Positions 16,301 through 31,965 of a stretch of DNA of 64,000 nucleotides are shown piece after piece. The position numbers and the translations under genes are program-made. Numbering within the stretch: position 1 is the first letter of the stretch; each line of letters starts with the position of its first letter. The DNA is from Petrimonas sp. IBARAKI (lineage in GTDB: Bacteria; Bacteroidota; Bacteroidia; Bacteroidales; Dysgonomonadaceae). Location of the stretch: contig AP018040.2 of NCBI GenBank assembly GCA_002356435.2, forward strand, positions 1,984,001 through 2,048,000, written 5' to 3'. The notes beneath the pieces are model-generated. The model ran no database searches, was not told the DNA's origin, and saw nothing but the letters and a program-made list of their open reading frames with translations.

Positions 16301-17549
16301 CCAACAAACACATAACGTGCGTATGGAGGCCACACTTGAACCGCTCCGCGGCCTGAAAATTGATTTAAATGCGCTGTATGAAAATAGCCGCCGTACGGAA
16401 ATCCAATATATGTTCGACGGAATGCCCAAAATTTACGGCGGAAGTTTTGCGATAAGTACATTAGCCTTGGCTTCGGCTTTTGAGAACTCCAAGGCTAGAA
16501 ATGATTACGCCTCGCCATCGTTCGACCGGTTCCTGGCAAACCGGGAAGTCGTCGCCGGCAGGGTACGCAGCCGGTACCAAAACTCCACCTACCCCAATCG
16601 GGGGTTTATTGCTGAAACGGCATTTCAAAACCAGCCCTTTAGTCCGGAAAACGGCGACGTGAACCTCCATTCGGCAGATGTGCTGATACCCTCTTTCCTG
16701 GCCGCCTACACGGGACGGGATGCTCAAAAAATCGGATTGACCGCTTTTCCTGACCTGCTATCGCTACTGCCCAACTGGGACATTTCGTACAACGTTTTAC
16801 AAATGCTGCCTGCGCTCCGGGCAAACTTCAAATCGCTGCTGCTTACGCACAAATATGTGTCGCAGTATCGTGTAGGAGCGTTCTCCTCGTTCCTCAGCTG
16901 GGTACCCCTGGATGATACGTCCGATTTGGGATATGTCCGCGATGTGCTTACCGGTTCGCCTGTTCCGTCGTCACCATACGACATCTCTGCGGTAAACCTG
17001 ATCGAAACTTTTAGTCCGCTTATCGAGGCACGGGGGGTACTCGATAACAACATGACCTTCAATTTCCGCATTAACCACACGCGTTCGCTCAACCTGAACA
17101 TCGCATCTTACCAAGTCGTGGAAACGAACGACAACGATATGGTTTTCGGGTTAGGTTACCGACTACCCGATTTTAACCGCATTATCGGCTTTGGCTCTAA
17201 CTCGGTAAAAGCCGGTCGCAGGCAAACACGTGTTAACCGCGCACAAGCAACGCAAACAGAGAACGCCGATAACCTGCCGGAATTCAACAACGACCTGAAC
17301 ATCCGGGTAGATGTGTCGCACAAAATCACACAGGCCCTTATCCGTAAGATCGAAGACCGGTTTACCCAAGCCACCAGCGGATTAAAAACCACCGCCATCC
17401 GCTTTTCTGCGGACTATGCGTTGAGCCGGTCACTCACGCTCCGTGCATTCTTCGATAAAACCATTCATGTGCCGTTGGTCTCCTCAGCAGCATACCCCAC
17501 AGCCAACACAAGTGCAGGAATGAGCCTGCGGCTGAATTTGAACCGGTGA
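10398..17549 (+). CDS. sprA: SprA, type IX secretion outer-membrane translocon (Sov homologue)
   Basis: The 2383-residue size, signal peptide (about residues 1-25, ending VVAQ) and position after ruvA identify SprA (Sov in Porphyromonas). SprA is the very large beta-barrel through which type IX secretion substrates cross the outer membrane and on which gliding depends. The sequence is rich in alternating beta-strand patterns with repeated barrel blocks. It ends with an aromatic-poor strand (TSAGMSLRLNLNR). The start is TTG 10398: an in-frame TAA immediately precedes it, and no ATG occurs before the signal peptide. The last 60 coding bases recur at 31906-31965, see repeats. The gene is complete with no frameshift. 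Confidence 0.95.
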   Translation: MKRTALYNLFLIVLLAVSRIQPVVAQQDTTKSRFPVQKTTVEMVEDLTKKLPADLQTPSNIRTEVFYDYKTNRYVFQNKVGDKVTGIPFTMTPAEYMEYTLKESNDKYFKDRNAIRKEDKPAGKEPLPFFNLRRSNTLLEDVFGPGGIQLTTQGSIELSSGLIRNVIDNPTLPERSRKRTRFDLDPQIQLNVNAKVGNKINFGLNYDTDAAFNFDARRVKLAYQGDEDEIIKNMEAGNVSMTTENSLINGGTALFGIKSDLQFGKLRVSTVLSQQESESRTISSRGAVQTTPFEINADQYDENRHFFLSHYFRDNYDKALAKLPYVQSAVSITRLEVWVTNKRSSYDQARDILALADLGEHSSIHNPLWSTTGTETVPHNDANTMHRELISTYVAARDISQTAAVLPSTVIMGRDYEKIESARLLTPSEYTFQPQLGYVSLRTPLQADEVLAVAYEYIYNGKAYQVGEFSSNQNVGALFLKLLKPVSLSPQAYTWDLMMKNIYSLGYNAYNIQKDRFKLSITYQSDTTGVYLNYIPEGDIRDHLLLSVMNLDNLNSANDPHPDGIFDFLDGYTVMADNGRIIFPVVEPFGSHLRKMIADDAVAEKYVFQQLYDSTLTVARQFAEKNKFRISGEYRGSSGAELNLNATNITRGSVRVTANGVALIEGTDYTVDYISGTVTIINQAILDAGTPVTVTLENQSVFNMQRKTMMGVDLAYNFSKDFRVGATVMHYYEKPLTVKTVFGEESVKNTLWGLNTSFRKQSYALTRLLDILPFVDASAPSQLTANLEFAHMIPGHYRNKYTGGYSYLDDFETSTSRIDLRSPYGWSLASTPFNDTSTGLFPEAALTNNIDYGKNRAHMAWFYIDGLFTHRNSSLTPAHIKNDKEQLSNHLVREIYEREIFPDKEAVYGDPPTLPVMNISFYPDERGPYNLDTSIDPEGKLLNPEKRWGGITRKMDIRDFEAANIEYIEFWLMDPFVNDKTGADRGGDLYFNLGEISEDVLKDGKKFFENGLPVNGDASTSGTSIWGKYPLRQSTVYAFDNSQGDESRRVQDVGLNGLSTEEEKAFPTYAAYLDEIIPKLSEEVLPRMRADRHSLLNDPSGDNFRHYRGQEQDRAQLSILDRYKYYNGTEGNSLVPDETQPYSTASRTTPDVEDIDNDNTLNENESYYQYKVQLRPGNMTVGSNYIVDKREANVSLRNGKTGKVNWYQFKIPLRDYQSRVGNMRGFNNIRFMRMFLTGFGQPVFLRFATLELVRSEWRTYTQSLQSGGTVAGPGKLEVSTVSIEENGDRTPVNYVLPPGVTRILDPSQPQLRQQNEQAIALKVKDLDPGDSRAIYKNTEYDLRRYKRLQMFIHAEETADGSSDLQDDEMSIFLRIGSDYRNNYYEYEIPLKLTPAGRYSSNIPDHQETVWKPGNKFDFPLELLTSLKLKRNAEKRRGSGVTYLTPYSEADPQKPENRLTVVGNPSLAEVKVIMIGVRNNSVSAKSSEVWANELRLSEFDEKGGWAVQGNVNLALSDIGSLTVSGRKETVGFGTLDQSLLERRNDDYSSINVAMNMELGRFLPEPLKISAPLYYSYSNQTTAPQYDPLNRDILLSESLKNTRNKQERDSVIRLAVTQTLNKSLILNNIKMNIKSKNPMPYDPTNFSFGYSYSENHFQSPDTEYNNSIHQRLQANYGYTPLVKPFEPFKNFSFNYLPNNIQISSQLMRNYQETQLRDLNAHMSGFSQSQRQYLTFSQFFTWDRDFSITWDLTRNLKTSFRSGTIAEIEEPYLQVNKKLNRDDYELWKDSVIQSIQNLGKPLNYEQTADISYTLPFAQIPVLDWMSVSTAYNSRYRWERGAFIRDENIGNILQNDLSLTVNGRLNLVQLYNKIGFLRKTGQRFDADVAQYLARSLMMVRSVNVNFGYRSRTDIPGFDPMVGDFFGQSHTPAGLIPGLGFAFGFDGGERFLEKSDANNWLVKNADNISPALYQQTHNVRMEATLEPLRGLKIDLNALYENSRRTEIQYMFDGMPKIYGGSFAISTLALASAFENSKARNDYASPSFDRFLANREVVAGRVRSRYQNSTYPNRGFIAETAFQNQPFSPENGDVNLHSADVLIPSFLAAYTGRDAQKIGLTAFPDLLSLLPNWDISYNVLQMLPALRANFKSLLLTHKYVSQYRVGAFSSFLSWVPLDDTSDLGYVRDVLTGSPVPSSPYDISAVNLIETFSPLIEARGVLDNNMTFNFRINHTRSLNLNIASYQVVETNDNDMVFGLGYRLPDFNRIIGFGSNSVKAGRRQTRVNRAQATQTENADNLPEFNNDLNIRVDVSHKITQALIRKIEDRFTQATSGLKTTAIRFSADYALSRSLTLRAFFDKTIHVPLVSSAAYPTANTSAGMSLRLNLNR
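17488..17547 (+). repeat. 60-bp direct repeat, copy A (3' end of sprA)
   Basis: Bases 17488-17547 are the last codons of sprA up to the first base of its TGA stop. They match 31906-31965 at 59 of 60 positions in the same orientation, 14418 bases apart. The only mismatch is C at 17532 against T at 31950, a silent Leu codon change. Identity ends exactly at the stop codon (TGA here, TAG in copy B). Confidence 0.97.
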
Positions 17550-17572
17550 TCCGGATTACAACAGGTGGAGAT

Positions 17573-17602
17573 TTGCGACTTTCCGTGAAAAAAGTATCTT
17601 TG
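17573..17602 (+). promoter_or_regulatory. Promoter of the ECF sigma factor gene (TTG-N19-TATCTTTG)
   Basis: TTG at 17573-17575, exactly 19 bases, then TATCTTTG at 17595-17602: a perfect match to the primary-sigma promoter of Bacteroidetes. Transcription would begin near 17609, so translation must start downstream. This decides against the longer reading frame that begins inside sprA. Confidence 0.7.
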
Positions 17603-17674
17603 CATACGGCAAATCACAAACAGGATACGTATTTTCCTCTTTTGAGGTGTCCTTTACAATATAAACCCATTATT

Positions 17675-18274
17675 TTGCAAAAATCCGCAGGTAATACAAA
17701 ATATTTATTTAATCAACTATCTACTGGGAATCAGAAAGCATTTGATATGCTTTTTCGGGATTGGTATGCGAGATTGGTGGGTTTTGCCCAAACCTTTGTT
17801 TCCGAAAGCGGTCTGGCGGAAGAAGTGGTGTCGGATGTTTTTGTATCGCTTTGGATAAATCGCCAAAAATTGGCCACTGTTAATCACGCAGATACTTACT
17901 TGTACGTATCCGTGAAAAACAGGTGCCTTAACGCCTCGCGGAGCAAAATTTTTGCCGTAGCCCCTGAAACACAACCTGATGTAAAAATGCTGGAATATGA
18001 AAATCCGCAGGAAGTAATGGAACATCGGGAGTTGTATGAGAAATTAAACCGTTTGATCAGTCAGCTTCCAGAGCAACAGCAAGTTATTTTTCGCATGATT
18101 AAAGAGAACGGATTAACAGCCAAACAAACGGCTAAAATCCTACAGCTTTCGCCTCGAACCGTGGAAACCCATATCTATAAAGCCGTAAAGCGACTCGAGG
18201 AAGAGATTACCGGATATCTGGGTTATTCGCCCAAGAAAAAAACGGTAAATCGGATGATCACGTTGGCATTGTGA
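17675..18274 (+). CDS. ECF-type RNA polymerase sigma factor
   Basis: The 199-residue protein has sigma region 2 (AFDMLFRDWYARLVGFAQTF and EEVVSDVFVSLW) and region 4 (QLPEQQQVIFRMIKENGLTA, then LSPRTVETHIYKAVKRL). It is a Bacteroidales-type ECF factor that would direct polymerase to the receptor gene downstream once released from FecR. The frame is open back to 17546 inside sprA, but the promoter at 17573-17602 makes TTG 17675 the likeliest start, and the resulting size is normal for the family. FecR follows 160 bases later on the same strand, and then a TonB receptor. Confidence 0.85.
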   Translation: MQKSAGNTKYLFNQLSTGNQKAFDMLFRDWYARLVGFAQTFVSESGLAEEVVSDVFVSLWINRQKLATVNHADTYLYVSVKNRCLNASRSKIFAVAPETQPDVKMLEYENPQEVMEHRELYEKLNRLISQLPEQQQVIFRMIKENGLTAKQTAKILQLSPRTVETHIYKAVKRLEEEITGYLGYSPKKKTVNRMITLAL

Positions 18275-18434
18275 GATAAAGAGTTTTCATATATCGTAGA
18301 TTTTCCGTTTTTCCACTACGTATTCCTTTTCTTTCCCGTGTCCTTATTACAGAACCCAGGTGAAGCAGCCCGCAAGCCGCTTATCTACAAAGCGAGTTGG
18401 ATATTGCTCTACCCCCATTAAACAACGTAATACA

Positions 18435-19436
18435 ATGACAAAAAAATCGTTTCTTCACCTGCTCGCCAAAGAAATATCAGGGACTATTTCAACGGATGAG
18501 AAAAAAATGTTGGACGAAAGTCGGGAAGAAAATCCGACATTCGACCGGGTTTATACCGAAGTGCAGCGATTTATGCAGACGAAACACCATCAACCTGTCG
18601 TGGACGTGGAAGGCAAACTCGATGAAGTGTGGCGTCGTATCCATACACAACTGGAGCCGGAAGAGCCGGATACTCCCAAGCGGATTGTTCCGTTGTGGGC
18701 ACATGTAGCCGCATCGGTGGCAATAATCGTGGGATTGGGCATACTGGCGTACAACCATTTGCCGAACGAGCGGATGCTCCATACGCAAACATTGCAAACC
18801 GGAGATGAAAACCTTTATGCCGTGCTAGACGATGGCACGCAGGTATGGTTGAGCAAGCACTCTCAATTGGCATACAATAAGAATTTTGGTGAAAAAAAAC
18901 GAAAAATACGTCTCTCAGGCGAAGCGTTCTTCGATGTGGCGCATCGCCCCGAAGTACCGCTGACGGTTTCGGCGAACGAGGTGGATATAACCGTGAAAGG
19001 CACGGCGTTTAATGTGAATGCGACGCAACCCGATGTAGAGGTTGTGCTCGTCCGCGGGCTGGTGTCTGTGAAAGAGAATCGCCGAAAAGACACCGAAGCG
19101 TTCTTGTTGTATCCCAACCAGAAAGCGACAGTAGGCCATGGAAAACTCGTGTTAAACGAACACAATTACCAAGTTACGCAAACCAACGACACCATCGTTC
19201 TCGAAACCCAATGGTTGGGCGACGCGCTCGTTTTCCAAAAACAACGCTTTACCAATTTGGCTAAACTGATGGAAGTCCGGTTTGGCGTGGAAATCACGCT
19301 CCTCAATCCCACCATTGCCGAACAGCAATTCACGGGCAGCATCAAGAACGAAAGTCTTACGCAAATGCTGGACGCACTAAAACAATCGTATCCGTTTGAG
19401 TATGAGATTGACGGGAAGACAGTCCTAATTAGATAG
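18435..19436 (+). CDS. FecR family anti-sigma factor
   Basis: The 333-residue inner-membrane protein has an N-terminal cytoplasmic anti-sigma segment (about residues 1-85), one membrane helix (HVAASVAIIVGLGILAYNHL), a periplasmic FecR domain (DDGTQVWLSKHSQLAYNKNF, GEAFFDVAHRP, VKGTAFNVNA) and a C-terminal DUF4974 domain (ITLLNPTIAEQQFTGSI). It holds the preceding sigma factor until the outer-membrane receptor signals. ATG 18435 is preferred to an upstream GTG at 18360, because the latter adds a tail without family resemblance. The arrangement sigma-FecR-receptor is the standard ferric-citrate-like signalling unit. Confidence 0.92.
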   Translation: MTKKSFLHLLAKEISGTISTDEKKMLDESREENPTFDRVYTEVQRFMQTKHHQPVVDVEGKLDEVWRRIHTQLEPEEPDTPKRIVPLWAHVAASVAIIVGLGILAYNHLPNERMLHTQTLQTGDENLYAVLDDGTQVWLSKHSQLAYNKNFGEKKRKIRLSGEAFFDVAHRPEVPLTVSANEVDITVKGTAFNVNATQPDVEVVLVRGLVSVKENRRKDTEAFLLYPNQKATVGHGKLVLNEHNYQVTQTNDTIVLETQWLGDALVFQKQRFTNLAKLMEVRFGVEITLLNPTIAEQQFTGSIKNESLTQMLDALKQSYPFEYEIDGKTVLIR

Positions 19437-19522: not shown

Positions 19523-22189
19523 ATGCACAACAATAACATTCACACCACTGTAGAGACGCAATGCCTTGTGTATCAAACAAAAATAGTCATTTTCATTTTA
19601 CTATTTTTATTTTCCTTCGGCACATTTGCCCAAACCAAACCCATTTCCATCTCGGCAAAAAACACGCCCATAAAACAAGTTTTCGCCGAAATCCAACAAA
19701 AATCGGGCTACCGTATTTTATATAATGACAAAGTGGTGACGGATGATTTACGCGTATCGGTAACCGCCGAAAACACATCGGTAAAAAAAATCCTGCACAT
19801 GATATTGGAAGGCACGGATTTAACATACATCATGCAGTCGGACGAACTCATTATCATCACCAAACACCGATATGAGAGCCAGCGGGCGGAGGTTTTCGGC
19901 ACGGTTATCGATGAAAAAGGCTTACCCGTGCCTTACGCCAACGTGGTGCTGCTGCAACCCGACGATACCACCAAACTGGGCTATGGTGCAGTTACCGACG
20001 AGGCGGGCTACTACAAATTGGCCAACGTGAAGCCCGCCACATACCGTCTACAAGTGTCGTTTATCGGCTACAAAACACAGTATTCGGAGTTTGTGGTATC
20101 GGACGAAAACCGTCAGCCCATCGTGCGCAATTTCACGTTACCCGCCGACGAAACCGTGTTGCAGGAACTTGTGGTGGAAGGCCAACGCCCCGCCCTGAAA
20201 ACCGAAAACGGAAAACTTATCTACCACACACCCACGCTTTTGCGCGGGAAAGGTGTAACCAACGCTTACGACGCACTCAAAGAAATCCCGGGCGTGATGG
20301 AGCAGGGCGAACGCCTCACCCTCATCGGTACAAGCGGCATGACGGTGCTGCTCAACGGACGAAAAACATCAATGACTTACGAGCAACTGATGGCGATGCT
20401 CAAAAGCATTCCACTCTCGCGCGTGGAAGACGTGGAAATCATGTACAGCACGCCGCCGCAATACAACATTCGCGGAGCGGCCATCAACGTGGTTTTGAAA
20501 CAGCAGGGCGATGACGAGCAAAACGCGTGGCAGGGCGAAGTAACAAGCGAATACCGCCAACGCACCTACGCTGTGGGCGGATTGCGGGCAAGTATGCTTT
20601 ATGTGGGAAAACGCACAACGGCAGAAGCACTCTATGCGTACCGAAACGGAAGGGAGTTCAGCGAAGAAGAACTCACGGCAGCACATACACTCAACGGTAC
20701 GGTGTACGATATTCGTCAACACAGCGAAGGAACGAACAAAGGCGATGGACACAACGTGCACATGGCGCTTCAACACACGTTCGGCAACAAAGACAAAGGC
20801 GATGTTTCCTACACGGGAATCTTCGATGACGGGCGGTCCAACCGAACCGCGTCCACCGATATTTCAGGCACGGTAACCAATTCGAAAACAGGAACGTCGG
20901 GGCCCTCGTCCACACACAACATCAAAGCCGATTATTCCGCGCATTTCGGGCTAAACATCGGAGCAGATTACACCGCGTATAACGATAAATCGGATTATTT
21001 TCTCGAAAACACGTCGTTGGCATCTTCCGCGCTTGCCAACAAACTTACCTATCAGTCCGAGCAGGAAGTCCGCCGAACGATGTTTTATGTCACCCAATTA
21101 CACACGCTCAACAACGATTGGAGCATCAATTACGGGCTCAACTATTCGGGTGCGCACACCCAAAACCGTTCCCGCGCGCTCAAAAACGGCGAGGGATTTG
21201 ACGACGCTACTTTCGACACGCGGCAGCGCGAACATATCTGGAATTTCTTCGCGGGATTTTCCAAATCGTTTTCCGAAAAACTATCCATGCAAGCATCGTT
21301 GGCGGCAGAATATTACAAAGCTTCCGAAACATCCAAAGGCCATACCAATCCGCTTTGGAACGATGTAGCTTGGTTTCCGACGCTCAACGCGAGTTACAAG
21401 CCTTCGTCCGACCATATTTTTCAGTTTGCCGTTTCGTCCGACAAAACCTATCCCTCGTATTGGAGCCTCAATCCAAGCGTGTTTTATTTCAGTACCTACG
21501 GCGTAACTTATGGAAATCCGCACCTGCGACCAAGCCGCGATTACAGCATCGGCCTCACCTATATCCACAAACGGAAATATGTAATTCGTCCTTATTTCAA
21601 TTACATTCCCCATTATTTTGTGCAGTTGCCCTATCAGTCACCCGAAAAATTGCAACAGGAGTTTGTGGAACAAAACTACACATACAGGCAAGTTGTCGGG
21701 TTGATGGGTGTTTTGCCGTTCACTATCGGCAAGCGCGTTTCGTCGCGACTGGTTACCAACGTGATGCACTGGCGCGAGAAAGACGACGAGTTTTTCAATT
21801 TGTCGTTTGACCGTAAAACCGTTTTGGGTATTTTTCAGATGAACCACGATATTACATTGTCGGCAAAACCCGACGTGAAAATGAATGTTTCAGGATACGT
21901 TTCCACGCCCACAGGGATTCAGGGAATTTACGATTTGGGTGCGTCAGGTAACCTCGCGGGTGCGCTCACGTGGACATTCGACCGCAACCGCACCCAAATC
22001 ATCCTAAAAGCTGACGATGTTCTCAACACCCGCACGCCTCTTGCCTCCATCGATTTTAAAGGGCAAAAAAGCACGCTAAACGCTTTCCGAGACACCCGCA
22101 CCGTTTCCCTCTCCTTCATCTACCGCTTTGGCGGTTACAAGGAAAAAGAACACAAGCAGGTGGATACATCGAGGTTTGGAACGAACTAA
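19523..22189 (+). CDS. TonB-dependent receptor with STN signalling domain
   Basis: The 888-residue outer-membrane protein has a hydrophobic signal (about residues 20-36, ending FAQ). An STN domain (ISISAKNTPIKQVFAEIQQ, about 42-115) passes the ligand signal to FecR, and a carboxypeptidase-regulatory-like domain (GTVIDEKGLPVPYANVVLLQ, about 125-205) follows. Next come a plug region (GVTNAYDALKEIPGVMEQ, TVLLNGRK) and a long beta-barrel of the outer-membrane-barrel family rather than the SusC type, ending with FIYRFGGYKEKEHKQVDTSR. No SusD partner follows. The ligand could be a metal chelate, peptide or oligosaccharide. The gene ends the plus-strand module. Confidence 0.88.
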   Translation: MHNNNIHTTVETQCLVYQTKIVIFILLFLFSFGTFAQTKPISISAKNTPIKQVFAEIQQKSGYRILYNDKVVTDDLRVSVTAENTSVKKILHMILEGTDLTYIMQSDELIIITKHRYESQRAEVFGTVIDEKGLPVPYANVVLLQPDDTTKLGYGAVTDEAGYYKLANVKPATYRLQVSFIGYKTQYSEFVVSDENRQPIVRNFTLPADETVLQELVVEGQRPALKTENGKLIYHTPTLLRGKGVTNAYDALKEIPGVMEQGERLTLIGTSGMTVLLNGRKTSMTYEQLMAMLKSIPLSRVEDVEIMYSTPPQYNIRGAAINVVLKQQGDDEQNAWQGEVTSEYRQRTYAVGGLRASMLYVGKRTTAEALYAYRNGREFSEEELTAAHTLNGTVYDIRQHSEGTNKGDGHNVHMALQHTFGNKDKGDVSYTGIFDDGRSNRTASTDISGTVTNSKTGTSGPSSTHNIKADYSAHFGLNIGADYTAYNDKSDYFLENTSLASSALANKLTYQSEQEVRRTMFYVTQLHTLNNDWSINYGLNYSGAHTQNRSRALKNGEGFDDATFDTRQREHIWNFFAGFSKSFSEKLSMQASLAAEYYKASETSKGHTNPLWNDVAWFPTLNASYKPSSDHIFQFAVSSDKTYPSYWSLNPSVFYFSTYGVTYGNPHLRPSRDYSIGLTYIHKRKYVIRPYFNYIPHYFVQLPYQSPEKLQQEFVEQNYTYRQVVGLMGVLPFTIGKRVSSRLVTNVMHWREKDDEFFNLSFDRKTVLGIFQMNHDITLSAKPDVKMNVSGYVSTPTGIQGIYDLGASGNLAGALTWTFDRNRTQIILKADDVLNTRTPLASIDFKGQKSTLNAFRDTRTVSLSFIYRFGGYKEKEHKQVDTSRFGTN

Positions 22190-22307: not shown

Positions 22308-22338
22308 AAAATTTTCTAATGATCAATATTTTAGTGTT

Positions 22339-23190
22339 TTACAAAACCTCATCCGCAACTTTATTGAAATAATCAATAGACTGTCTGATTTCCGGCAGGT
22401 TGTTTTCCCAGTTTGCTTCATATTCAATGGTGAAATACCCGCTGAAGTCCTGACGCTTCAACTCTTCCAGCATTCCCTTCACATTCAACACTCCGGTTCC
22501 CCAGACCACATCTTCCAGGACTCCCTCCGGCCCTTCAGGGGCAATGTCCTTAAAGTGCATGGCCATGAGCCTTCCCTCCAGTTGCCCCAGCGCCGGTATC
22601 GGATCGATTCCCATTCTCTTGAAATGGCCTACATCGGCGCTTGATCCCAATAGCGGATCTCTTTGTCCGATGTACTCCAGCAAAAGTTCAGGTTTCCAAT
22701 AGGAGTCCCCGTTCGGATGATTGTGGGTGGCTACCTTTATGCCATATTCTTTGGCAAAGAGTTCCACGATATCCCAGTCCTCGCGTGCCGGCTCGGCGCT
22801 GATGAATTCCATTCCCATATCTTTGGCAAACGAGAAAACCTTCTCCCATTCATCGCGCGAGGAAGTCCAGACACCGGAAGATACGATTTTCACCTCCCTG
22901 GATGCGGCCAGCTCCCTCAATTGTTCTTGTTGCTCCGTAGTCAGGCCATAACCGAAAACAGCATCGCCAAACCCTTCTCCCATCTTTTGTCCGGGATAGA
23001 TTTCAATGTAATGCAGTCCCAGTTCCCGGGTCTTCTCCAATGATTCCACTACGGAAAACAGGTGAAAGGTGTAGGATTGCATGGAAAGTCTCCAGCCTTG
23101 CTTTTCCGCTTTGGTTTCCGTCTTGGATGAAGCAACGCAAGCCGACAGGCAGCCGGCCAAAAGAAAAAACAGCAATTTTTTAATTTTCAT
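22339..23190 (-). CDS. Lipoprotein with sugar phosphate isomerase/epimerase (xylose-isomerase-like) TIM barrel
   Basis: The 283-residue lipoprotein has the signal peptide MKIKKLLFFLLAGCLSAC (lipobox LSAC). The AP-endonuclease-2/xylose-isomerase-like barrel follows, with metal-ligand positions in HYIEIYPG, EFISAEPA, THNHPNG, SADVGHF, AMHFKDI and FTIEYE. ATG 23190 gives a clean lipoprotein signal, unlike an upstream start at 23217. In Bacteroides such proteins occur beside Gfo/Idh/MocA dehydrogenases and DUF1080 proteins, where they act on 3-keto sugars (hydratase or isomerase). Here the gene is the last of the SusC-SusD-oxidoreductase operon. Envelope location and context suggest processing of an oxidised sugar; the exact reaction is inference. 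Confidence 0.82.
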   Translation of the reverse strand: MKIKKLLFFLLAGCLSACVASSKTETKAEKQGWRLSMQSYTFHLFSVVESLEKTRELGLHYIEIYPGQKMGEGFGDAVFGYGLTTEQQEQLRELAASREVKIVSSGVWTSSRDEWEKVFSFAKDMGMEFISAEPAREDWDIVELFAKEYGIKVATHNHPNGDSYWKPELLLEYIGQRDPLLGSSADVGHFKRMGIDPIPALGQLEGRLMAMHFKDIAPEGPEGVLEDVVWGTGVLNVKGMLEELKRQDFSGYFTIEYEANWENNLPEIRQSIDYFNKVADEVL

Positions 23191-23204
23191 ACGGTTTGTT
23201 TTAT

Positions 23205-23240
23205 AACGATAGTGCATCCGGTCCCCGGAGCACTATCGTT
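23205..23240 (-). other. Intercistronic hairpin between oxidoreductase and TIM-barrel genes
   Basis: AACGATAGTGC (23205-23215) and GCACTATCGTT (23230-23240) form a perfect 11-bp stem with a 14-base GC-rich loop that can itself pair partly (TCCGG/CCGGA). The T-run lies on the plus strand, where no gene ends, so it is not a normal terminator for the minus-strand operon. It may stabilise or partly terminate the upstream mRNA. Confidence 0.6.
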
Positions 23241-23253: not shown

Positions 23254-24771
23254 TCAAATGTTTGGCATTTCCGGCAGCGTGAACCCGTTTTGGTATGTAT
23301 GCCTAATCCACTCATTGGCCATCTCCAGGGCGTTGAATTCGGCAAACCTGCGGTCGAACTTCGGGTCCCCGTCTATCACCGCATACTCATCCACCGTCAC
23401 AATCTTTATCTTGTCGGTCGGGGAGATATTGGTGAACTTCATATTCTCTCCATCCCACTTCAGTTCCCGGTGCAGGCCGTGCAGCCCGGAGAGCCTGGTT
23501 GCCAGTACGCCCATTACGACCATTTCATTAAACGGTCCCGAGAACTGGAAGTTGGACGAGGACTCTTTCCGGTTATTTGGAGACTCCTTACATGCCCTTA
23601 TCCAGTCTTGCTCGTGGGCATCGGTAGCCCAAATATTCCCGTTTCCTCCCTTAACCCTGGGAATGGTGGGCTCCGGCTCTTTGAAGTCTGCCATCAGGGA
23701 GGTCGGCAGGAGCGTCGGGTTCATGCCGTAACATCCGGTCATGATCTTTCCTTTGGTTCCCACCAGTATGATGCCGCCGTTTGAATCGCCCATCATCTCT
23801 CCGTCTTTCAGTTCCTTGGGACGGTCGGGAACCAGACCGCCATCATACCAGTAAACGGTGAGCTCTGGCATGTTTACATTGCCTTTGGGAGGCCTTGCCG
23901 GGAATTTATAGGTTACCTTCTGTGCCTGCGGCGGTGAATAGAGGTTGGAAAGCGTGGAGCTGCCTTCTACCGAAGAGGGGTATTTCAAGTCGAGTGCCCA
24001 GTAGAGCGGGTCCATGATGTGGCAGGCCATGTCTCCCAGGGCGCCTGTGCCGAAATCCCAGAATCCCCGCCAGTTCCACGGGGTGTATGCCGGGTCGTAG
24101 GGCCGTCTTGCGGCCGGACCGATGAACAGGTCCCAGTCGAGAGCCGCCGGAACGGGGACACCTCCCTTGGGCTCTGCCAGCCCTTGCGGCCAGATGGGGC
24201 GGTCCGTCCAGCAGTGGGCTTCGTGGACATCCCCGATGACACCTGACTTTACCCACTCTGCCACTTGTCTGCACCAGTCGAAGGAGTTGCCCTGGTTGCC
24301 CATCTGGGTGGCAACCTTGTATTTTTTAGCCAGCCTGGTCAGCAGCCTGGATTCATACACGCTGTGTGTCAGCGGTTTTTGTACATAAGTGTGCTTCCCC
24401 AGGGTGATGGCGTGGGCGGCCACGCCCGCGTGGGTGTGGTCGGGTGTCGCCACCAGGATGGCATCGATGGAGTTTCCCATCTTGTCGAACATTTCCCGCC
24501 AGTCTTTAAACTGCCTGGCCTTTGGATGATCGCCGAATGTCTTTGCGGCATATTTCCAGTCCACGTCGCAAAGGGCTATGATGTTCTCCGTTTTCATGTT
24601 GGCCAGGTTGCGGCGCCCCATGCCCCCAACGCCAACACCCGCAATATTGAGCTTGTCGCTGGGAGCCATATGGCCAAAAGATTTACCTAATATGCTGTCA
24701 GGTACGATGGTCAACCCGGCAGCGCCTGCTGCCGCTGTTTTTAAAAATTTTCTGCGTGAATATGTGTTCAT
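23254..24771 (-). CDS. Tat-exported Gfo/Idh/MocA family oxidoreductase
   Basis: The 505-residue protein begins with a twin-arginine signal (SRRKFLKTAAAGAAG), so it is exported folded with its cofactor. A Rossmann NAD(P)-binding domain follows (IAGVGVGGMGRRNL, ALCDVDWKYA, ATPDHTHAGVAAHAI, and QKPLTHS in place of the usual EKP). The C-terminal Gfo/Idh/MocA domain begins near the HCWTDRPIWPQG segment. ATG 24771 places the Tat motif at the N-terminus; a start at 24807 would add 12 residues. Candidate roles are glycoside 3-dehydrogenase or a GH109-like NAD-dependent glycosidase, both known for exported members. It follows susD by 19 bases and precedes the TIM-barrel lipoprotein. Its GC-rich base use contrasts sharply with the AT-rich susD. 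Confidence 0.87.
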   Translation of the reverse strand: MNTYSRRKFLKTAAAGAAGLTIVPDSILGKSFGHMAPSDKLNIAGVGVGGMGRRNLANMKTENIIALCDVDWKYAAKTFGDHPKARQFKDWREMFDKMGNSIDAILVATPDHTHAGVAAHAITLGKHTYVQKPLTHSVYESRLLTRLAKKYKVATQMGNQGNSFDWCRQVAEWVKSGVIGDVHEAHCWTDRPIWPQGLAEPKGGVPVPAALDWDLFIGPAARRPYDPAYTPWNWRGFWDFGTGALGDMACHIMDPLYWALDLKYPSSVEGSSTLSNLYSPPQAQKVTYKFPARPPKGNVNMPELTVYWYDGGLVPDRPKELKDGEMMGDSNGGIILVGTKGKIMTGCYGMNPTLLPTSLMADFKEPEPTIPRVKGGNGNIWATDAHEQDWIRACKESPNNRKESSSNFQFSGPFNEMVVMGVLATRLSGLHGLHRELKWDGENMKFTNISPTDKIKIVTVDEYAVIDGDPKFDRRFAEFNALEMANEWIRHTYQNGFTLPEMPNI

Positions 24772-24790
24772 TGTTTTAAAATTTTGGAAA

Positions 24791-26473
24791 CTATTTGTAA
24801 TTATCATTTTGAATCAACACTCCGTTTGAAGTGTCAATTTCAGTTTGAGGAATTGGAAATGGCCAACTTTTATCCGTAACTAATTTACCTTTATTGGCGT
24901 AGGGCTGTTTTACGTTATAAGTATTCATAACGGTCACAAAATCACCCCAACGCAAAAGATCTATAAATCTATATCCTTCTAATCCAAGCTCCCATCTTCG
25001 TTCATTTTTAATCGCTTTCAGTAAATCATCAGAAGCCTTAACTGCTAAATTCGTTTCAAAATATACATCATCAATAGGAATCAAATCAGCTTCAAAAGCC
25101 CTGAAGCTGGCTTCTTCATCTTTTTTTGAAGTGGTAACAAAAGCCCTGTAACGAACTTCATTAACTAAACTAGCCACTTTCTGATTATCGCCTCCAGTTT
25201 TTAAAAGCGCCTCAGCATACATCAATATGAGATCTGCGTAGCGAATATAGTATGGAGTCCAATCTGAACGAATATCACCCAAAGAATACCCTGCTCTAAA
25301 TTTATCGGGTACAAATGCTTTCCTGCTTTGCTGAAAATGAACATTATCATAACCTTTATAAGAGTGTTCAATTTGCTTACCTCCCACGTTCGGAAAGATA
25401 TCTCCTGATTTTATAACGGAAAACAATTTTCTGGGATCTCTTTTGTCAAAAGACTCGGCAAAGTCAATTGTAGGGCAGTTACCTCCCCAACCGCCAACCT
25501 CCCCGCGTCCGGCATACATAACGGCAGTACAATAACCAATATCAAGATATCCGGGAACATATTTTCTTATTACAGTAAATATGGTTTCTTTATAAAGTTC
25601 TGCACTGTGTTCACCGGCGAAATAATCTCCCCTAAAAAGGTTTTGATAATCTGAAACTAAAGCAAAAGATTTGCTGTCATAAACAGTTTTTGCCGCATTC
25701 AAAGCTAGAGTATATTCTACGCCGGCATTACCTTGTAGTTTTCCCGTTTCCATTAATCCGGCAAAAAATAAACAAACTCTTGCTTTGAAAGCGTTAGCTA
25801 CGTGCTTAGATATCCGACCATATTCATTGCCAGTTACCTGTATTGGCATATTCGGATCAGCTAAACATTCATCAATATCTTTCAGTATTTGTGTTCGTAA
25901 ATCTTCAATAGAGGCTTTTTCGGGTAATTCAGAAGGTGCAGGGGTGCCCGTTAATAAAGGAACAGTTCCAAAAGTTGAAACTAAATCAAAATAATACCAG
26001 GCTCGAAGAAATTTCACTTCGGAGACATACCGTGATTTTACTTGTTCAGAAAGCAAACTTCCATCTGCTGCCACTAAAGATGTAGCAGTACTAATACCTT
26101 CAATTGCTGAATTACAACGAGATATTCCGGTATACCTTCGCGTCCACATATTCAATAATTCACCGTTTGAGGTTAATGGCCTTCCAGTAGCTACCTCTTT
26201 CGTTTCAGCTCGATCATTTGCATCTGAACCGCCGGCATCCGCATCATCCGTTATATTACTTCCAAGTTCTATCCTATTCAGATAATAATCCCAGTCTCCC
26301 CATGGAATCATATTTATGTAACAATTTGTTACGGCTTTAAAAGCAGCATCTGGGGTATTATAATATCCTGCCTCATCAATAGAAGCATATTGTTTCGAAT
26401 TTAAAAAACTATCTGAACAAGAATAAACTAAAAACAACAAAAAAATGATGGGTATATATATTATTTTTTTCAT
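24791..26473 (-). CDS. susD: RagB/SusD family nutrient-binding lipoprotein
   Basis: The 560-residue lipoprotein has the signal peptide MKKIIYIPIIFLLFLVYSC (lipobox VYSC). The SusD fold follows: an N-terminal helical half with TPDAAFKAVTNCYINM and SEVKFLRAWYYFDLVSTFG, and the C-terminal signature ERRWELGLEGYRFIDLLRWGD, which is diagnostic. SusD proteins form a lid over the SusC barrel and bind the glycan at the cell surface. It starts 12 bases after susC ends, and the two form a functional pair. The ligand is unknown; no glycoside hydrolase is inside the operon. Confidence 0.95.
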   Translation of the reverse strand: MKKIIYIPIIFLLFLVYSCSDSFLNSKQYASIDEAGYYNTPDAAFKAVTNCYINMIPWGDWDYYLNRIELGSNITDDADAGGSDANDRAETKEVATGRPLTSNGELLNMWTRRYTGISRCNSAIEGISTATSLVAADGSLLSEQVKSRYVSEVKFLRAWYYFDLVSTFGTVPLLTGTPAPSELPEKASIEDLRTQILKDIDECLADPNMPIQVTGNEYGRISKHVANAFKARVCLFFAGLMETGKLQGNAGVEYTLALNAAKTVYDSKSFALVSDYQNLFRGDYFAGEHSAELYKETIFTVIRKYVPGYLDIGYCTAVMYAGRGEVGGWGGNCPTIDFAESFDKRDPRKLFSVIKSGDIFPNVGGKQIEHSYKGYDNVHFQQSRKAFVPDKFRAGYSLGDIRSDWTPYYIRYADLILMYAEALLKTGGDNQKVASLVNEVRYRAFVTTSKKDEEASFRAFEADLIPIDDVYFETNLAVKASDDLLKAIKNERRWELGLEGYRFIDLLRWGDFVTVMNTYNVKQPYANKGKLVTDKSWPFPIPQTEIDTSNGVLIQNDNYK

Positions 26474-26485
26474 ATTGCGATTTTT

Positions 26486-29400
26486 TTAAAATTTAACACT
26501 TAATCCTATTAGATACTGACGTGCTTGCGGGTAAAACGCAATATCCACTCCGTTGAATAAAGGTCTGCTATCAGCAATTTCAGGAGACATGCCCGTGTAC
26601 TTGGTTAACGTGAATAAATTGTATGCGCCTATCCAAATTCTCATTTCCTGCATATATATTTTTTTGAGAAGATTTGCAGGCAATCTGTATCCAATTTGAA
26701 TATTTTTCATTTGAAAATATGAGCCGTCTTCGGCTAACCAATCTGATACTTGGACATTTGTTGAATTGTCGGTTGTAATGCGGAATTGCGTATTGGATTT
26801 GTTTGTTTCACTCCAAGCATTCTCCATCAAATCCTTTGGTGCATTATAGTAAGCAGTTCCCGAATATAAATCCAATTTTTTCATATTCATAATGGTATTT
26901 CCTTGTACACCGTAGAAATCCATTAATAAATCAAAACCTTTGTAATCGAAACTTGCATTTAATCCGAAAGTAAATTTCGGAAACGGGCTACCCAAATATG
27001 TTCGATCAGCGTCAGAAATTATTCCGTCATTATTAACGTCAACATATCTCAAGTCACCCGGTCGAGCTTTATCTTGAACGACTTGTTTGCCTTCGGCATT
27101 TTTATAGCTGTCGATTTCTTGTTGTGATTGAAAAATTCCGTTGGTCTTTAAACCGTAAAAATAACCTACTGGCTGACCAACTTCAGTTTTCGTAATGGTT
27201 TTATTATCATACCCAACTCCGTATAAAGGCTGACCTCCACCTAATGAAAGAACTTTATTGGAGTAAGTAAAGAAATTACCACCTAAAGAATAATTAAGAT
27301 CTCCGGTACTTCCCAGATAATTAATACTTAATTCTATTCCTTTATTCTCAATACTTCCTGCATTTGTCCATGGGTTATTAGTATAACCTAAATAGTGAGG
27401 TAGTGGTACCTGCAAAAGCATGTCTTTTGTCTTTTTATAGAATAAGTCACCAACAAAAGTTAATTTGTTATCAAAAAAACCCAAATCTATACCTAAATCC
27501 GTCTGTTCTGTAGTTTCCCATTTTACGTTTGGATTACCCATATAGCTTTTTCCACCGGCTAACTGGAAAATCCCGTTAAAGAAGAAATATCCACTGTTAA
27601 GACTATATGTTGAACGATACGCTCCTCCGTCTATTGCTTGGTTTCCTATTTGTCCCCAGCTTAAACGCAGTTTTCCATTAGATAGATGACTATCCATGTT
27701 TTTCAGAAAACTTTCTTCTGAAAACACCCAAGCAGCTGATGCCGACGGAAATACTCCCCACCTATTTCCGATACCGAAACTGGACGAACCATCGTATCTT
27801 AGAGTGGCGGTTAACAAATATCTATCTTGCCACGAATGGAAAAGACGTCCAAAATAGGAAACCATCGATCCATTGTATTTACTTCCCCCGGCAGATGGAT
27901 TCTTAGTGGCTGCATCAATTACTGTCTGACTTTCCGCATTGGTTACAATACCTGTTTTTGATGCACTGAATGCCCCACCTTTAGTCATTTCAACAGAATT
28001 CCCCAATAAAAATGTCGTGTGTTGCTTTCCATTCCAATCGTATGTTTTGTCCAAAGTTAATAAGTTATCAATCACCGTATAATTTGAAAAATAGGATGCT
28101 GAACCTACATATCCGTCTATATTATTTTGATAAGCCCCAATATAATAGGAGGGCGTAAAATACTCAGGATTAGCCCTGTATATCGATAAATTTACTGTCC
28201 CTCTGTATTTCAACCATTTGAAGATGTCAATATCCAACGTGCTTCCTCCTCTAAAGGTAACATCCTTCCACCTATTATTCTTATTTATATCCAATTGTGC
28301 AACCGGATTGGCTCTGTTGTTAAAAAAAACAGGACTGTAAGCCGTATAAGGATTACTTGCGTCAATTTTGTCAATCAACAATAAGTTGGCCAATAAAGGA
28401 GCTACGTTATTTAAATTGGTTCTAAAAATTGGGGTAACCGGATCTACTGTTAATGAGGAGAATATTGTTCCATCGTAAATAGTGTTTTCCACTACATTGC
28501 GGCGTTCTTGCGAAACAATGGAAAAATTGCTGGAAAGCCTGGCCCAGCTGGTTAACTGATTGTCCACGGTTGTTCTCCATGAAACTCTTTTAAAGTCAGA
28601 TTCTTTCACAATTCCATCCTGAGACATATAACCAAGGGAAGAATAATAAGAGGTTTTTTCTGTTCCGTTGGAGATGGATAAATTATAATTACGGATGGGA
28701 GCAGATTGAAATATTTGCTCCTGCCAGTCCGTACCTTTTGTACTACCGAAATTATTCTTCAAGAAATCCAATAATTGTTGCTTGTCACTTGACGAAATCC
28801 AAGGTTGTCCAGTTCCGTTTGTATAGGCTAAGTTCCGATAATCAATAAACTCTTCAGCATCTAAAAGATCGAATTTTTTTGTAACATTTTGTTTGCCAAA
28901 ATAAACATCTAAGTTCACATTCATTCTATGAGTGCTACTCATTGTCCCTTTTTTTGTAGTAATAATAACAACTCCGTTGGCACCACGTGATCCATAAATG
29001 GCTTCTGCTGATGCATCCTTCAGAATTTCCATCGATTGGATATCATTTTGATTAAGCCACCCTATATCTGATTGAGGAAAACCATCAACCACATAAAGAG
29101 GATCGTTCCCGTTAACCGTTCCGATACCCCTAATCCTTACCGACGGGGGTGTTCCCGGGCTGCCTCCTGTTGACATAATGGTAACCCCAGGGACTTTTCC
29201 TTGTAATGCTTCTGATGCAGATCTAACCGGTATTCCGGTTAAATCTTCTCCTTTGACACTAGCAACAGAACCTGTCAAGTCACTTTTCTTCATAGTACCA
29301 TACCCAACGACCACTACTTCATCCAATGTTTTTGTATCTTCCTGTATTATAACACTTAATGATGTTTGTCCGGTTGTTGTTATTTCATAAGGAAGATAAC

Positions 29401-29947
29401 CAATATAAGATACATGTAGAATGGCATCAAGAGCCACACGCAACGAAAAACTCCCATTAACATCGGTGATAGTGCCATTACTTGTTCCTTTCTCTATAAT
29501 GTTAGCACCAATAACAGGTTCACCGTTTACATCGGTAACCTTTCCCGTAACAACTTTTTGCTGGGGTTGTTGTTCAGATACCAGTTCGATAGTGCGTTTG
29601 CGATCGAAAAAAATATACTTGTCGGAAACAGAATATGACAAAGAAGTGTTTTGGGTCATCACTTCCAGAATTTCTTTAACCGTTTTATCAGTCATATCTA
29701 AATTGAACCGGTAAGAATTATCCACATCGCGGTTTTTATAAAAAAACACATAACTCGATTGTTTTTCAATTATGGAAACCACCTCGTTAAAAGTGGCATC
29801 CTTTGCTTTAACAGTAATTTTTTCACTTTGTGCGTGACTCAGAGCAAATGCATTACAAATGCCCGCCAACATAAAAATTACGATAAACTTCATGGTTAAT
29901 ACTATTTTTCCGGGTATAAATCCTCGTAAGATTACTATTTTATTCAT
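26486..29947 (-). CDS. susC: SusC/RagA family TonB-linked outer-membrane transporter with STN domain
   Basis: The 1153-residue protein begins MNKIVILRGFIPGKIVLTMK, followed by a signal peptide ending SHAQ. An STN domain follows (KITVKAKDATFNEVVSIIEKQ), then a carboxypeptidase-regulatory-like domain (VTGKVTDVNGEPVIGANIIEKG), the SusC signature VVGYGTMKKSDLTGSV with plug, and the barrel, which ends PQARQYLIGLSVKF. It imports large oligomers across the outer membrane with TonB energy, and through the STN domain it signals to the adjacent FecR. ATG 29947 fits the usual SusC N-terminus; a longer frame to 30004 exists. Gene order on this strand is sigma, FecR, susC, susD, oxidoreductase, TIM barrel. 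Confidence 0.95.
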   Translation of the reverse strand: MNKIVILRGFIPGKIVLTMKFIVIFMLAGICNAFALSHAQSEKITVKAKDATFNEVVSIIEKQSSYVFFYKNRDVDNSYRFNLDMTDKTVKEILEVMTQNTSLSYSVSDKYIFFDRKRTIELVSEQQPQQKVVTGKVTDVNGEPVIGANIIEKGTSNGTITDVNGSFSLRVALDAILHVSYIGYLPYEITTTGQTSLSVIIQEDTKTLDEVVVVGYGTMKKSDLTGSVASVKGEDLTGIPVRSASEALQGKVPGVTIMSTGGSPGTPPSVRIRGIGTVNGNDPLYVVDGFPQSDIGWLNQNDIQSMEILKDASAEAIYGSRGANGVVIITTKKGTMSSTHRMNVNLDVYFGKQNVTKKFDLLDAEEFIDYRNLAYTNGTGQPWISSSDKQQLLDFLKNNFGSTKGTDWQEQIFQSAPIRNYNLSISNGTEKTSYYSSLGYMSQDGIVKESDFKRVSWRTTVDNQLTSWARLSSNFSIVSQERRNVVENTIYDGTIFSSLTVDPVTPIFRTNLNNVAPLLANLLLIDKIDASNPYTAYSPVFFNNRANPVAQLDINKNNRWKDVTFRGGSTLDIDIFKWLKYRGTVNLSIYRANPEYFTPSYYIGAYQNNIDGYVGSASYFSNYTVIDNLLTLDKTYDWNGKQHTTFLLGNSVEMTKGGAFSASKTGIVTNAESQTVIDAATKNPSAGGSKYNGSMVSYFGRLFHSWQDRYLLTATLRYDGSSSFGIGNRWGVFPSASAAWVFSEESFLKNMDSHLSNGKLRLSWGQIGNQAIDGGAYRSTYSLNSGYFFFNGIFQLAGGKSYMGNPNVKWETTEQTDLGIDLGFFDNKLTFVGDLFYKKTKDMLLQVPLPHYLGYTNNPWTNAGSIENKGIELSINYLGSTGDLNYSLGGNFFTYSNKVLSLGGGQPLYGVGYDNKTITKTEVGQPVGYFYGLKTNGIFQSQQEIDSYKNAEGKQVVQDKARPGDLRYVDVNNDGIISDADRTYLGSPFPKFTFGLNASFDYKGFDLLMDFYGVQGNTIMNMKKLDLYSGTAYYNAPKDLMENAWSETNKSNTQFRITTDNSTNVQVSDWLAEDGSYFQMKNIQIGYRLPANLLKKIYMQEMRIWIGAYNLFTLTKYTGMSPEIADSRPLFNGVDIAFYPQARQYLIGLSVKF

Positions 29948-30126
29948 ATATTTGCATGTTTTTGATTGGGTTAGAACTAATTGTTCCGTTAGTTTACCAG
30001 ACACCCGGAACAGTTGTTAATTGATTAAAAACGCCTTATCTTGAATCGGGTAGTCTATCGAATTGCCCGGTTCTTTTTATTCTTCTTTTATCCGTCCATA
30101 GGTTTTAATTTTAAATGATTTAATGT

Positions 30127-31149
30127 TTATTTTAACGCAATTGTAATGGAGTCGTTGCTAAAAATTGTCCGGAATTCTCCATGAAAATTAATAATCCGCA
30201 TAACCTCTTCTATGCTCTGATTCGATGAGAATTTACCGGTATACTTCTCCGCACGGCTTTCTTTATCAGTAACAATAATGGTTACACCGTACATTTTACT
30301 CAACCGATCAGTTATTTGTTGCAAAGGAACATCCTGAAACGAATATATCCCGTTGGTCCAAGATATTACCTCATGGGTATCGGTCTGGTTCAAGGTTATT
30401 TGTCCGGTATATGCATCAAAGCGAAGTTGTTGCTCAGGACTCATTACAATACGATCCCTTAAATTTTTCTCTTCGTCAAAAGTTTCCAGTTGCACTTTTC
30501 CACTGATCAGGGTAGTGACGGAATATGCATCTGTTGAATAATCCATAACATTAAATCTCGTTCCCAGCACATTGATTTGTTGTTTATTGCTGTGAACAAT
30601 AAATAATTTGTTTTCCTGCTTTATTACGTTGAACAATGCTTCACCATCGAGGTATACTTTACGTTCTTCATTTTTAAATTTCTTCGGATATCTTAAATAA
30701 GACGACGCATTTAGTTGTACCCACGAACCATCGGGTAAATGAATGGTTTTAGGAAGACTACACGCGGGATTATGAACTTCCACCCAGGTAACGGATGTTT
30801 CCTGCCGTATGTAAAACAAAGTAACGCCCCAAATTAAGAATCCAGCGACAGCGGCAGTTGTAGCTATTTTCCAACGGTTGAACAGTATTGATTTTTTCTT
30901 TGTAACAACTATCTCATCCTTACTTTTACTTTTTTGAAGTTTTGCCCATAGGCGATTCCATCCGGTTTCCAACTCAACACCATCAATATACAAATCTCCT
31001 TTTCGATAATCATAGATATTTTTTAGTTCGAAAAACAATTTTTTGTTTTTGTCGGTTAAATGAATCCATTCAGAAAAGAAATGCATTTCTTCTTCCGAAA
31101 CGGTATTTTGTAAAACCCGAATGATTATTTCCTCTATATTAAAGTCCAT
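30127..31149 (-). CDS. FecR family anti-sigma factor of the SusCD locus
   Basis: The 340-residue protein has an N-terminal anti-sigma segment (FNIEEIIIRVLQNTVSEEEM), one membrane helix (WKIATTAAVAGFLIWGVTLF), the FecR domain (HLPDGSWVQLNASSYLRYPK, DGEALFNVIKQ, VLGTRFNVMDYS) and C-terminal DUF4974 (FQDVPLQQITDRLSKMYGV). It controls the sigma factor upstream and receives the signal from the STN domain of SusC. ATG 31149 is used; one in-frame TTG lies directly before it. The 179-base gap to susC is where a sigma-dependent promoter for the transport genes would be expected; I see no confident motif there. Confidence 0.92.
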   Translation of the reverse strand: MDFNIEEIIIRVLQNTVSEEEMHFFSEWIHLTDKNKKLFFELKNIYDYRKGDLYIDGVELETGWNRLWAKLQKSKSKDEIVVTKKKSILFNRWKIATTAAVAGFLIWGVTLFYIRQETSVTWVEVHNPACSLPKTIHLPDGSWVQLNASSYLRYPKKFKNEERKVYLDGEALFNVIKQENKLFIVHSNKQQINVLGTRFNVMDYSTDAYSVTTLISGKVQLETFDEEKNLRDRIVMSPEQQLRFDAYTGQITLNQTDTHEVISWTNGIYSFQDVPLQQITDRLSKMYGVTIIVTDKESRAEKYTGKFSSNQSIEEVMRIINFHGEFRTIFSNDSITIALK

Positions 31150-31267
31150 CAATTACTTATTTCTTCTAATAATCAAAAAGACTCTACGGCCTTTATAGCG
31201 TCTTTTGATATATATACGGTTTAAGAACAAAAACTACGTATATAAATTACAAAAAATTAAATAATTT

Positions 31268-31810
31268 TCACAATAAAACAAAAAAAATGGAGAGAAGTAA
31301 AGGCATTAAATTATCACGAATTATTTTCAAAGCTTTATAAACTTGTGTTTCTACGGTTCTTACGGAGATATTTAAATCTTTAGCAATTCTGGCATGTTTT
31401 TCTTCTTCAAGGTAAGCTTTAATAAAAATTCTTTTACATTGTGGGGGAAGTCTCTCTATTTCATCATAGACAGCATTGATTTTCTCATTAAATAAAATAT
31501 CTTCGTTTAAATCATACCATCTTAATTCTTCAATCTTCAGTTCTGCCTGAATCCTTGACACATAAGTCTCTTCAACTTTAAGATGCTCCAGATAATCGAG
31601 ACAGGCATTTCTTACCATGCGGAAAAGGTAAGCCTTTATTCCGTTTTCATTAAACTTCTCTGAATTTTGGTGATAAAACTTAAGAAACACATCATGTACA
31701 ATATCTTCAGCTGTGAAGTTATCGACAAACTTTCTGGCAAAGGCGATTAACTGAGGAGCCTGTTGCAGGTAAATTTTTTTTACTTGCTTTTCATCGCCAC
31801 AGGGTATCAT
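31268..31810 (-). CDS. ECF sigma factor of the SusCD locus
   Basis: The 180-residue protein shows region 2 (APQLIAFARKFVDNFTAEDI, VHDVFLKFY, KAYLFRMVRNACLDYL) and region 4 (ERLPPQCKRIFIKAYLEE, LNISVRTVETQVYKALKII), typical of the Bacteroidales expansion of ECF factors. It ends with a hydrophobic stretch (LMPLLLSIFFVLL), common in this subfamily and perhaps membrane- or FecR-contacting. ATG 31810 is preceded by AAGAGA, a plausible ribosome site; an in-frame TTG at 31834 is the alternative. FecR follows after 118 bases. The gene start lies 96 bases from the sprA-tail repeat copy B. Confidence 0.9.
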   Translation of the reverse strand: MIPCGDEKQVKKIYLQQAPQLIAFARKFVDNFTAEDIVHDVFLKFYHQNSEKFNENGIKAYLFRMVRNACLDYLEHLKVEETYVSRIQAELKIEELRWYDLNEDILFNEKINAVYDEIERLPPQCKRIFIKAYLEEEKHARIAKDLNISVRTVETQVYKALKIIRDNLMPLLLSIFFVLL

Positions 31811-31859
31811 ATCTCTTAATCGACCGTTTTGCAATTCAGGTATTTTTTCTCTTCATCTG

Positions 31860-31867
31860 CAAAGGTA
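31860..31867 (-). promoter_or_regulatory. Candidate -7 element for the SusCD-locus sigma gene
   Basis: TACCTTTG on the minus strand fits TAnnTTTG and lies 49 bases before ATG 31810. The nearest TTG is only 15 bases upstream instead of 19, so the promoter would be imperfect. Confidence 0.35.
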
Positions 31868-31905
31868 ACCAATTTGGAAAAACAATAAAAAAACTTGATA
31901 TTACA

Positions 31906-31965
31906 CAGCATACCCCACAGCCAACACAAGTGCAGGAATGAGCCTGCGGTTGAATTTGAACCGGT
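31906..31965 (+). repeat. 60-bp direct repeat, copy B (orphan sprA 3' end)
   Basis: This orphan copy of the sprA tail is still readable in frame: it encodes the last residues of SprA (SAGMSLRLNLNR) and ends in TAG. It differs from copy A by one silent base within 60 bases. Its upstream flank is unrelated to sprA. It lies 11 bases from the stop of the WbsX-like gene and marks the right boundary of the candidate island. Confidence 0.97.

Follow-up and report, generated by a model that had tools for sequence, protein, structure and literature searches.

An orphan sprA 3′ end in a variable gene interval between sprA and an ftsE-like gene in Petrimonas sp. IBARAKI

The interval between sprA, which encodes the outer-membrane translocon of the type IX secretion system (T9SS), and a gene for an FtsE-like ABC ATPase (ftsE below) is best read as a site at which gene blocks have been gained, lost, and swapped by recombination within the genus. 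The window analyzed is a stretch of 64,000 nucleotides of Petrimonas sp. IBARAKI (NCBI GenBank assembly GCA_002356435.2, contig AP018040.2, positions 1,984,001 to 2,048,000 of the forward strand), whose genome (G000) is a single contig of 3,693,233 bases. In the window, sprA is intact, and an orphan copy of its 3′ end lies 14.4 kb farther downstream. An earlier note, made from the window alone, described the segment between the two ends as one accessory unit integrated at the 3′ end of sprA. The locus should rather be described as a site of variable cassettes, flanked by two conserved genes and scarred by a displaced gene end.

The repeat itself is real. The two copies, at 17488-17547 (copy A, the end of sprA) and 31906-31965 (copy B, the orphan), are in direct orientation, 14,418 bases apart, and identical at 59 of 60 bases, as the earlier note had it. 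The internal difference is silent (CTG/TTG, both Leu), and the copies end in one frame with stop codons of their own, TGA in copy A and TAG in copy B. When these stops and one further base on the left are included (Table 1), 4 of 63 positions differ; the leftmost base probably belongs to the homology, as copy B carries there the base found in G008, a relative introduced below. Aligned with the interval up to ftsE, the sprA tail scored 115, as compared to a maximum of 29 for 300 dinucleotide-shuffled tails and of 32 for 175 other 75-mers of sprA. The orphan is a true sprA end, as the earlier note held. A whole-genome search using the repeat returned these two places and 12 short matches, all with E values of at least 0.48.

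Two families of direct repeats are listed in the window: the sprA pair and one of 31 nucleotides at 74%. Using settings of 1-30 kb apart, at most 400 bp, and at least 88%, a scan of 864 kb of G000, window included, yielded 13 pairs besides the sprA pair, nine of them in one local array and one at a tRNA end. A tRNA-Pro gene has a second copy of its 3′ part at a distance of 16.2 kb, with 92% identity over 63 bp (G000:C1 1264507 and 1280672; L142 4507-4569, L143 672-733); such a repeat typically marks an island at a tRNA gene. Two perfect copies of a 32-bp sequence lie in direct orientation 4.4 kb apart (G000:C1 2376835-2376866 and 2381217-2381248; L175). A tandem duplication of the sprA end together with its neighbors was rejected for lack of a second repeat joining the genes to the left and right of the orphan end.

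The state of the interval was compared in a genus set of 10 genomes, several of them incomplete: G000, a conspecific genome (G099), and eight further genomes (G001-G008). In G003 and G001, ftsE directly follows sprA, leaving the interval empty, and in G007, a WbsX-like gene directly follows sprA and precedes ftsE; the earlier note had suggested looking for sprA followed directly by this gene. The isomerase gene is the sole gene between sprA and ftsE in G008. In G006, sprA is followed by genes for an extracytoplasmic function (ECF) sigma factor, a FecR-type anti-sigma factor, and a TonB-dependent outer-membrane protein (sigma-FecR-TonB), then by a decayed sprA end and ftsE. Both genomes of the species (n = 2), G000 and G099, carry the same stack of these cassettes plus a SusCD set. 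Finally, a sigma gene follows sprA in G005 and G004 before the contig ends, and in G002, sprA and an ftsE-like gene are on separate contigs, with 1.9 kb downstream of sprA that contain no sigma gene.

The sigma-FecR-TonB block is missing at this place in four genus genomes (G001, G003, G007, and G008), all of which keep sprA as a long open frame. None of the sigma, FecR, and TonB proteins was matched in G003, G007, or G008 at the cut-offs used; in G001, sigma was matched, but on another contig. Within the genus set, matches to FecR were confined to G000, G099, and G006; TonB was matched in these three and, on contigs of their own, in G005 and G004. Outside the genus, a sigma gene adjoins sprA in G017 and lies 1.2 kb from it in G019; the link between sigma gene and sprA is therefore older than the genus. 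The SusC protein, searched at E ≤ 1e-200 with seven candidates scored per genome, was matched in 6 of 101 family genomes, namely the two of this species and four of other genera at 36-55% identity, and had no match in the eight genus genomes outside the species. Because the sprA-ftsE interval varies among relatives (nothing, the WbsX-like gene, the isomerase gene, or sigma-FecR-TonB with an orphan end), the 14.4-kb segment is a composite. The idea of one inserted element was accordingly rejected: the pieces occur apart, with the left 4.7 kb (sigma-FecR-TonB) on its own in G006 and the isomerase gene on its own in G008.

The ruvA-sprA-sigma-TonB stretch of G005 appears inverted between cinA and the ftsE-like gene (L126, L193; names by eye). 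On one contig, ruvA and the beginning of sprA come after the ftsE-like gene in the same orientation; on another, an apparent end of cinA comes after the TonB gene, on the opposite strand. A toxin-antitoxin-like pair, of HigBA type by eye, follows the sigma gene in G019 (L078 3605-4223), where it precedes FecR, and in G005 (L072 2606-3224).

Orphan sprA ends were found in three species, at the matching place in each: G000, G006, and G004. The ends in G006 and G004 scored 49 and 50, respectively, with shuffled maxima of 28-29 (300 shuffles each; the G006 interval in this test was two bases short). In all three genomes, the homology extends as far as the stop codon and no farther, and the intact and orphan stops differ: TGA/TAG in G000, TAA/TAG in G006, and TAG/TAA in G004. 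Both features are expected if two alleles were involved, and not if a stretch had been copied with borders at random. Directly next to the G004 orphan end lies, by eye, an apparent frameshifted gene fragment, an arrangement expected of an illegitimate join. The orphan stop of G006 overlaps, again by eye, the stop of the ftsE-like gene.

Searching downstream of sprA for each gene's own tail (score of at least 30) gave hits for the window and G006 among the 16 sequences of a first set and for none of the 18 of a second, some loci having little downstream sequence (shortest, 1.1 kb). On the ftsE side, searched in five genomes, G004 alone gave a match (28 of 30 bases). No orphan end was found in the 25 of these loci that kinship assigns to other genera (7 in the first set and 18 in the second; sprA was matched in 73 genomes of other genera). 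At the four positions at which copies A and B differ, copy B has the base of G008 in every case; G006 and G003 share this base at two of them, so copy B may there simply be ancestral. The last 28 bases of the G004 orphan show no differences from the sprA end of its sister, G001, and two from its own gene. These base patterns would fit orphans of G000 and G004 that are the ends of block-less alleles, and the orphan ends would be the older ends.

A species tree of five linked proteins from 12 genomes placed G000 and G008 as sisters (86/86), joined next by G003 (99/99) and then by G006 (97/94), and grouped G004 with G001 (90/94). On this tree, presence of the block entails four changes, of which well supported branches force two, and its distribution shows no more clustering than shuffled labels do (500 of 500 shuffles as low). 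The last 299 codons of sprA joined G000 with G006 (88/93) and rejected a G000-G005 pair (approximately unbiased [AU] test, p = 0.0136). The DNA of sigma 1 joined G000 with G005 (100/100) and rejected G000 with G006 (AU p = 0.00043). The corresponding test with the sigma 1 protein was borderline (p = 0.0495), and the TonB protein again rejected G000 with G006 (AU p = 0.0004; the G004 row is from a contig with neither FecR nor sigma and may be another locus). The conflict between the sprA tree and the sigma and TonB trees therefore indicates that the neighboring block was exchanged in at least one lineage.

The orphan tail is probably a scar: sprA alleles with different downstream genes would have recombined, and one illegitimate junction would have displaced the sprA end of one of them. 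Specifically, an allele in which sprA is followed by sigma-FecR-TonB and further genes would have been combined with an allele of the order sprA-WbsX-ftsE. The left junction would be homologous and lie inside sprA, so that sprA stayed whole. The right junction would be illegitimate. Located in the second allele's sprA, some 60 bp short of its stop, it would have left this sprA end, own stop included, 14.4 kb downstream. This account starts from two ends with their own stops, from the alternative alleles of relatives, and from the tree conflict; a single event may have joined the alleles by such a homologous-plus-illegitimate mechanism and in the order given. It explains the intact sprA, the separate stops, the differing cargo, and the stacked order in G000. 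Recombination of the two repeats with each other, a product of which is not seen here, would delete the block and restore sprA. Exchange between sprA DNAs, one of several routes that the earlier note had offered, is now the best reading.

Several observations weigh against this account. The base patterns of the orphans involve four and two positions, and a change in copy A alone would suffice; the comparison for G004 relies on its sister G001, whose assembly is incomplete and has its sigma match on a different contig. The G006 orphan is equally near to the G000 orphan and to its own sprA, with 5 differences in 36 positions either way. By eye, G000 and G006 also agree at five of the first seven bases that follow their orphan stops; together these likenesses hint at one older orphan end. 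All three joins are located in the last 28-63 bp of a 7-kb gene, which is more concentrated than random joins would be. G005 has a sigma gene beside sprA, and no orphan end was found in its pieces, which are rearranged in order. Further, the identity of G000 and G005 is nearly equal in sigma (77.6%) and sprA (76.1%), and G006 is unusually far from both; the exchange behind the tree conflict may have occurred in G006 rather than in G000, and the identities lean to G006. Finally, a foreign donor tract was not seen in the 3′ part of sprA: in all 17 windows of 150 codons, through to the gene end, G008 was closest to G000 (G005 lacked four of them). Any donor tract in sprA is therefore short or from a near relative.

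Some of these points would suit an ancient duplication, an explanation that we consider unlikely. The genus ancestor would already have had the order sprA-block-orphan end-ftsE; gene conversion would have kept the two ends alike, and recombination between them would sometimes have deleted the block cleanly to yield the alleles of G001, G003, G007, and G008. The distances and post-stop bases of the G006 orphan agree with such a history, and the last codon ahead of the stop encodes Pro in the two G006 copies and Arg in the two G000 copies. The old link of sigma gene and sprA in two outgroup genera, the long sprA frames of the four genomes without the block, and the repeated change required by the species tree are likewise in its favor. 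It is at odds with the conflict between the sprA and block trees, with the G004 orphan, whose last 28 bases are nearer the sister's sprA than its own, and with the lack of an orphan end in the 25 other-genus loci, which include the sigma-bearing G017 and G019.

Genomic islands at gene 3′ ends, as in tRNA-type attachment, leave a repeat of the 3′ end that brackets their cargo. As in such islands, a direct repeat brackets the cargo here and the gene is left whole, so the anatomy fits the integration proposed by the earlier note; nothing positive was found beyond the anatomy. A site-specific element of this kind, in which a recombinase acting in trans would integrate circles using the sprA 3′ end as attachment site and the block would be decayed or dependent, is improbable. 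The orphan spans at least the last 28 positions in three species, and the tRNA-Pro repeat suggests that ordinary islands may occur in G000. In contrast, a Pfam search of the 10 open reading frames (ORFs) of the window interval, WbsX-like gene included, found no integrase, other recombinase, or transposase, in agreement with the earlier note. The cargo is composite and species-dependent, the orphan ends differ in length between species, and in G017 and G019, with sigma beside or near sprA, the end does not recur over 8.6 and 16.7 kb, respectively. A by-eye search for a symmetric core of the recombinase-site type found short inverted repeats in copy B that are not kept in G006 or G004. Equally doubtful is that the last 28-60 bp of sprA constitute a recurrent recombination site in the genus, at which sigma-FecR-TonB and other uptake blocks enter and leave with help in trans. 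Were this true, a type IX secretion gene would be a docking site for outer-membrane transport cassettes.

The second genome of the species, G099, is 99.90% identical to G000 over 8891-31845 and 99.37% over 31975-49016. Between these tracts, G099 has about 4 bp where G000 has 129 bp comprising copy B and the sequence upstream of sigma 2; gene order is the same and the orphan end is gone. The earlier note had named relatives with the same gene order and no second repeat as evidence against its proposal. G099 is formally such a relative, but its gap reads as a later deletion, presumably in G099, this being simpler than a gain of both parts in G000. An assembly artefact or chance similarity is hardly credible: although G099 lacks copy B, the repeat makes up just half of its gap, two other species each have an orphan end, and the alignment score is far above the shuffles.

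By eye, the region removed in G099 is the likely promoter of the sigma 2-FecR-SusCD operon, with an apparent −33/−7 promoter, the type of the phylum, before sigma 2. The operon may be silent in G099. To the right of the repeat, up to 49016, 94 of 108 differences between the two genomes fall in one patch at 46-49 kb (46332-49016), whose genes are, by eye, glutathione peroxidase-like, DNA polymerase III delta-like, and AMP nucleosidase-like. The patch looks like imported homologous DNA and was counted, as an import-like pattern, in favor of exchange by recombination.

The genes of the interval are listed in Table 1. Bacteroidota have many SusCD and ECF sigma/FecR/TonB sets for substrate uptake. 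The GC content is 0.33-0.38 over 25 to 32 kb of the window. The gene at the right border, convergent with sprA and labeled ftsE in the earlier note, does encode an FtsE-like ABC ATPase, but its score is below the cut-off of the FtsE model; the longer name is therefore the safe one.

Table 1. Features of the sprA-ftsE interval and its borders (window positions).
Feature	Position	Strand	Basis
sprA (Sov/SprA, T9SS outer-membrane translocon), intact, ends TGA	10398..17549	+	TIGR04189, 2667 bits, cut-off 200
Copy A, real sprA 3′ end, 63 bp including stop TGA	17487..17549	+	Repeat alignment
ECF sigma factor 1 (mechanical ORF; conserved part from about 17669)	17546..18274	+	Pfam Sigma70_r2/r4_2
FecR-type anti-sigma factor 1	18360..19436	+	Pfam FecR, FecR_C
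TonB-dependent outer-membrane protein with STN domain	19523..22189	+	Pfam OMP_b-brl_3, STN, CarboxypepD_reg
Sugar isomerase-like TIM barrel	22339..23217	-	Pfam AP_endonuc_2; G008 counterpart 85% DNA identity
Gfo/Idh/MocA oxidoreductase	23254..24807	-	Pfam search
SusD-like lipoprotein	24791..26473	-	Pfam search
SusC-like TonB-dependent receptor, low GC	26486..30004	-	Pfam search, GC profile
FecR-type anti-sigma factor 2	30127..31152	-	Pfam search
ECF sigma factor 2	31268..31834	-	Pfam search
129 bp absent from G099: upstream region of sigma 2 and orphan sprA end	31846..31974	.	Genome comparison
Copy B, orphan sprA 3′ end, in frame, stop TAG	31905..31967	+	Repeat alignment
WbsX-like glycan gene	31977..33260	-	Pfam Glyco_tran_WbsX
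FtsE-like ABC ATPase, right border of variable interval	33265..33951	-	TIGR02673, 227.5 bits, cut-off 264.85

The minimal mobile elements (MMEs) of Neisseria are different whole-gene cassettes between conserved genes that are incorporated by homologous recombination (PMC3082526). On that description, the sprA-ftsE site as a whole fits the definition: different whole-gene cassettes lie between two conserved genes, here compared mainly between species, and no mobility genes were found among the ORFs tested. Unlike in the MMEs so described, a displaced end of a border gene marks the exchange and several cassettes are stacked in G000; the phylum is another one.

A displacement model proposed for type VI secretion system (T6SS)/Rhs effector loci involves a homologous upstream anchor and an illegitimate far join, with the old 3′ end shifted downstream (PMC5361080); a definition of homology-facilitated illegitimate recombination (HFIR) is given in PMC3240628. 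Similarly, a sprA 3′ end, presumably the older one, is kept downstream, in frame to the stop, in three species. In the Rhs loci as presented there, however, the variable tip of the gene is replaced, whereas here the product is the same and only the downstream neighbors change, and the displaced end is a short scar rather than an orphan immunity gene.

The orphan sprA end is most likely a variant of a known process, in which blocks of nutrient-uptake genes are swapped beside sprA. Among the papers listed, no title concerned the sprA 3′ end as such a site, which does not prove absence. How uptake blocks enter chromosomes without genes of mobile elements is difficult to observe directly. At this one border, conflicting trees coincide with alternative alleles and a scar of exchange, and the route is therefore traceable in strain collections.

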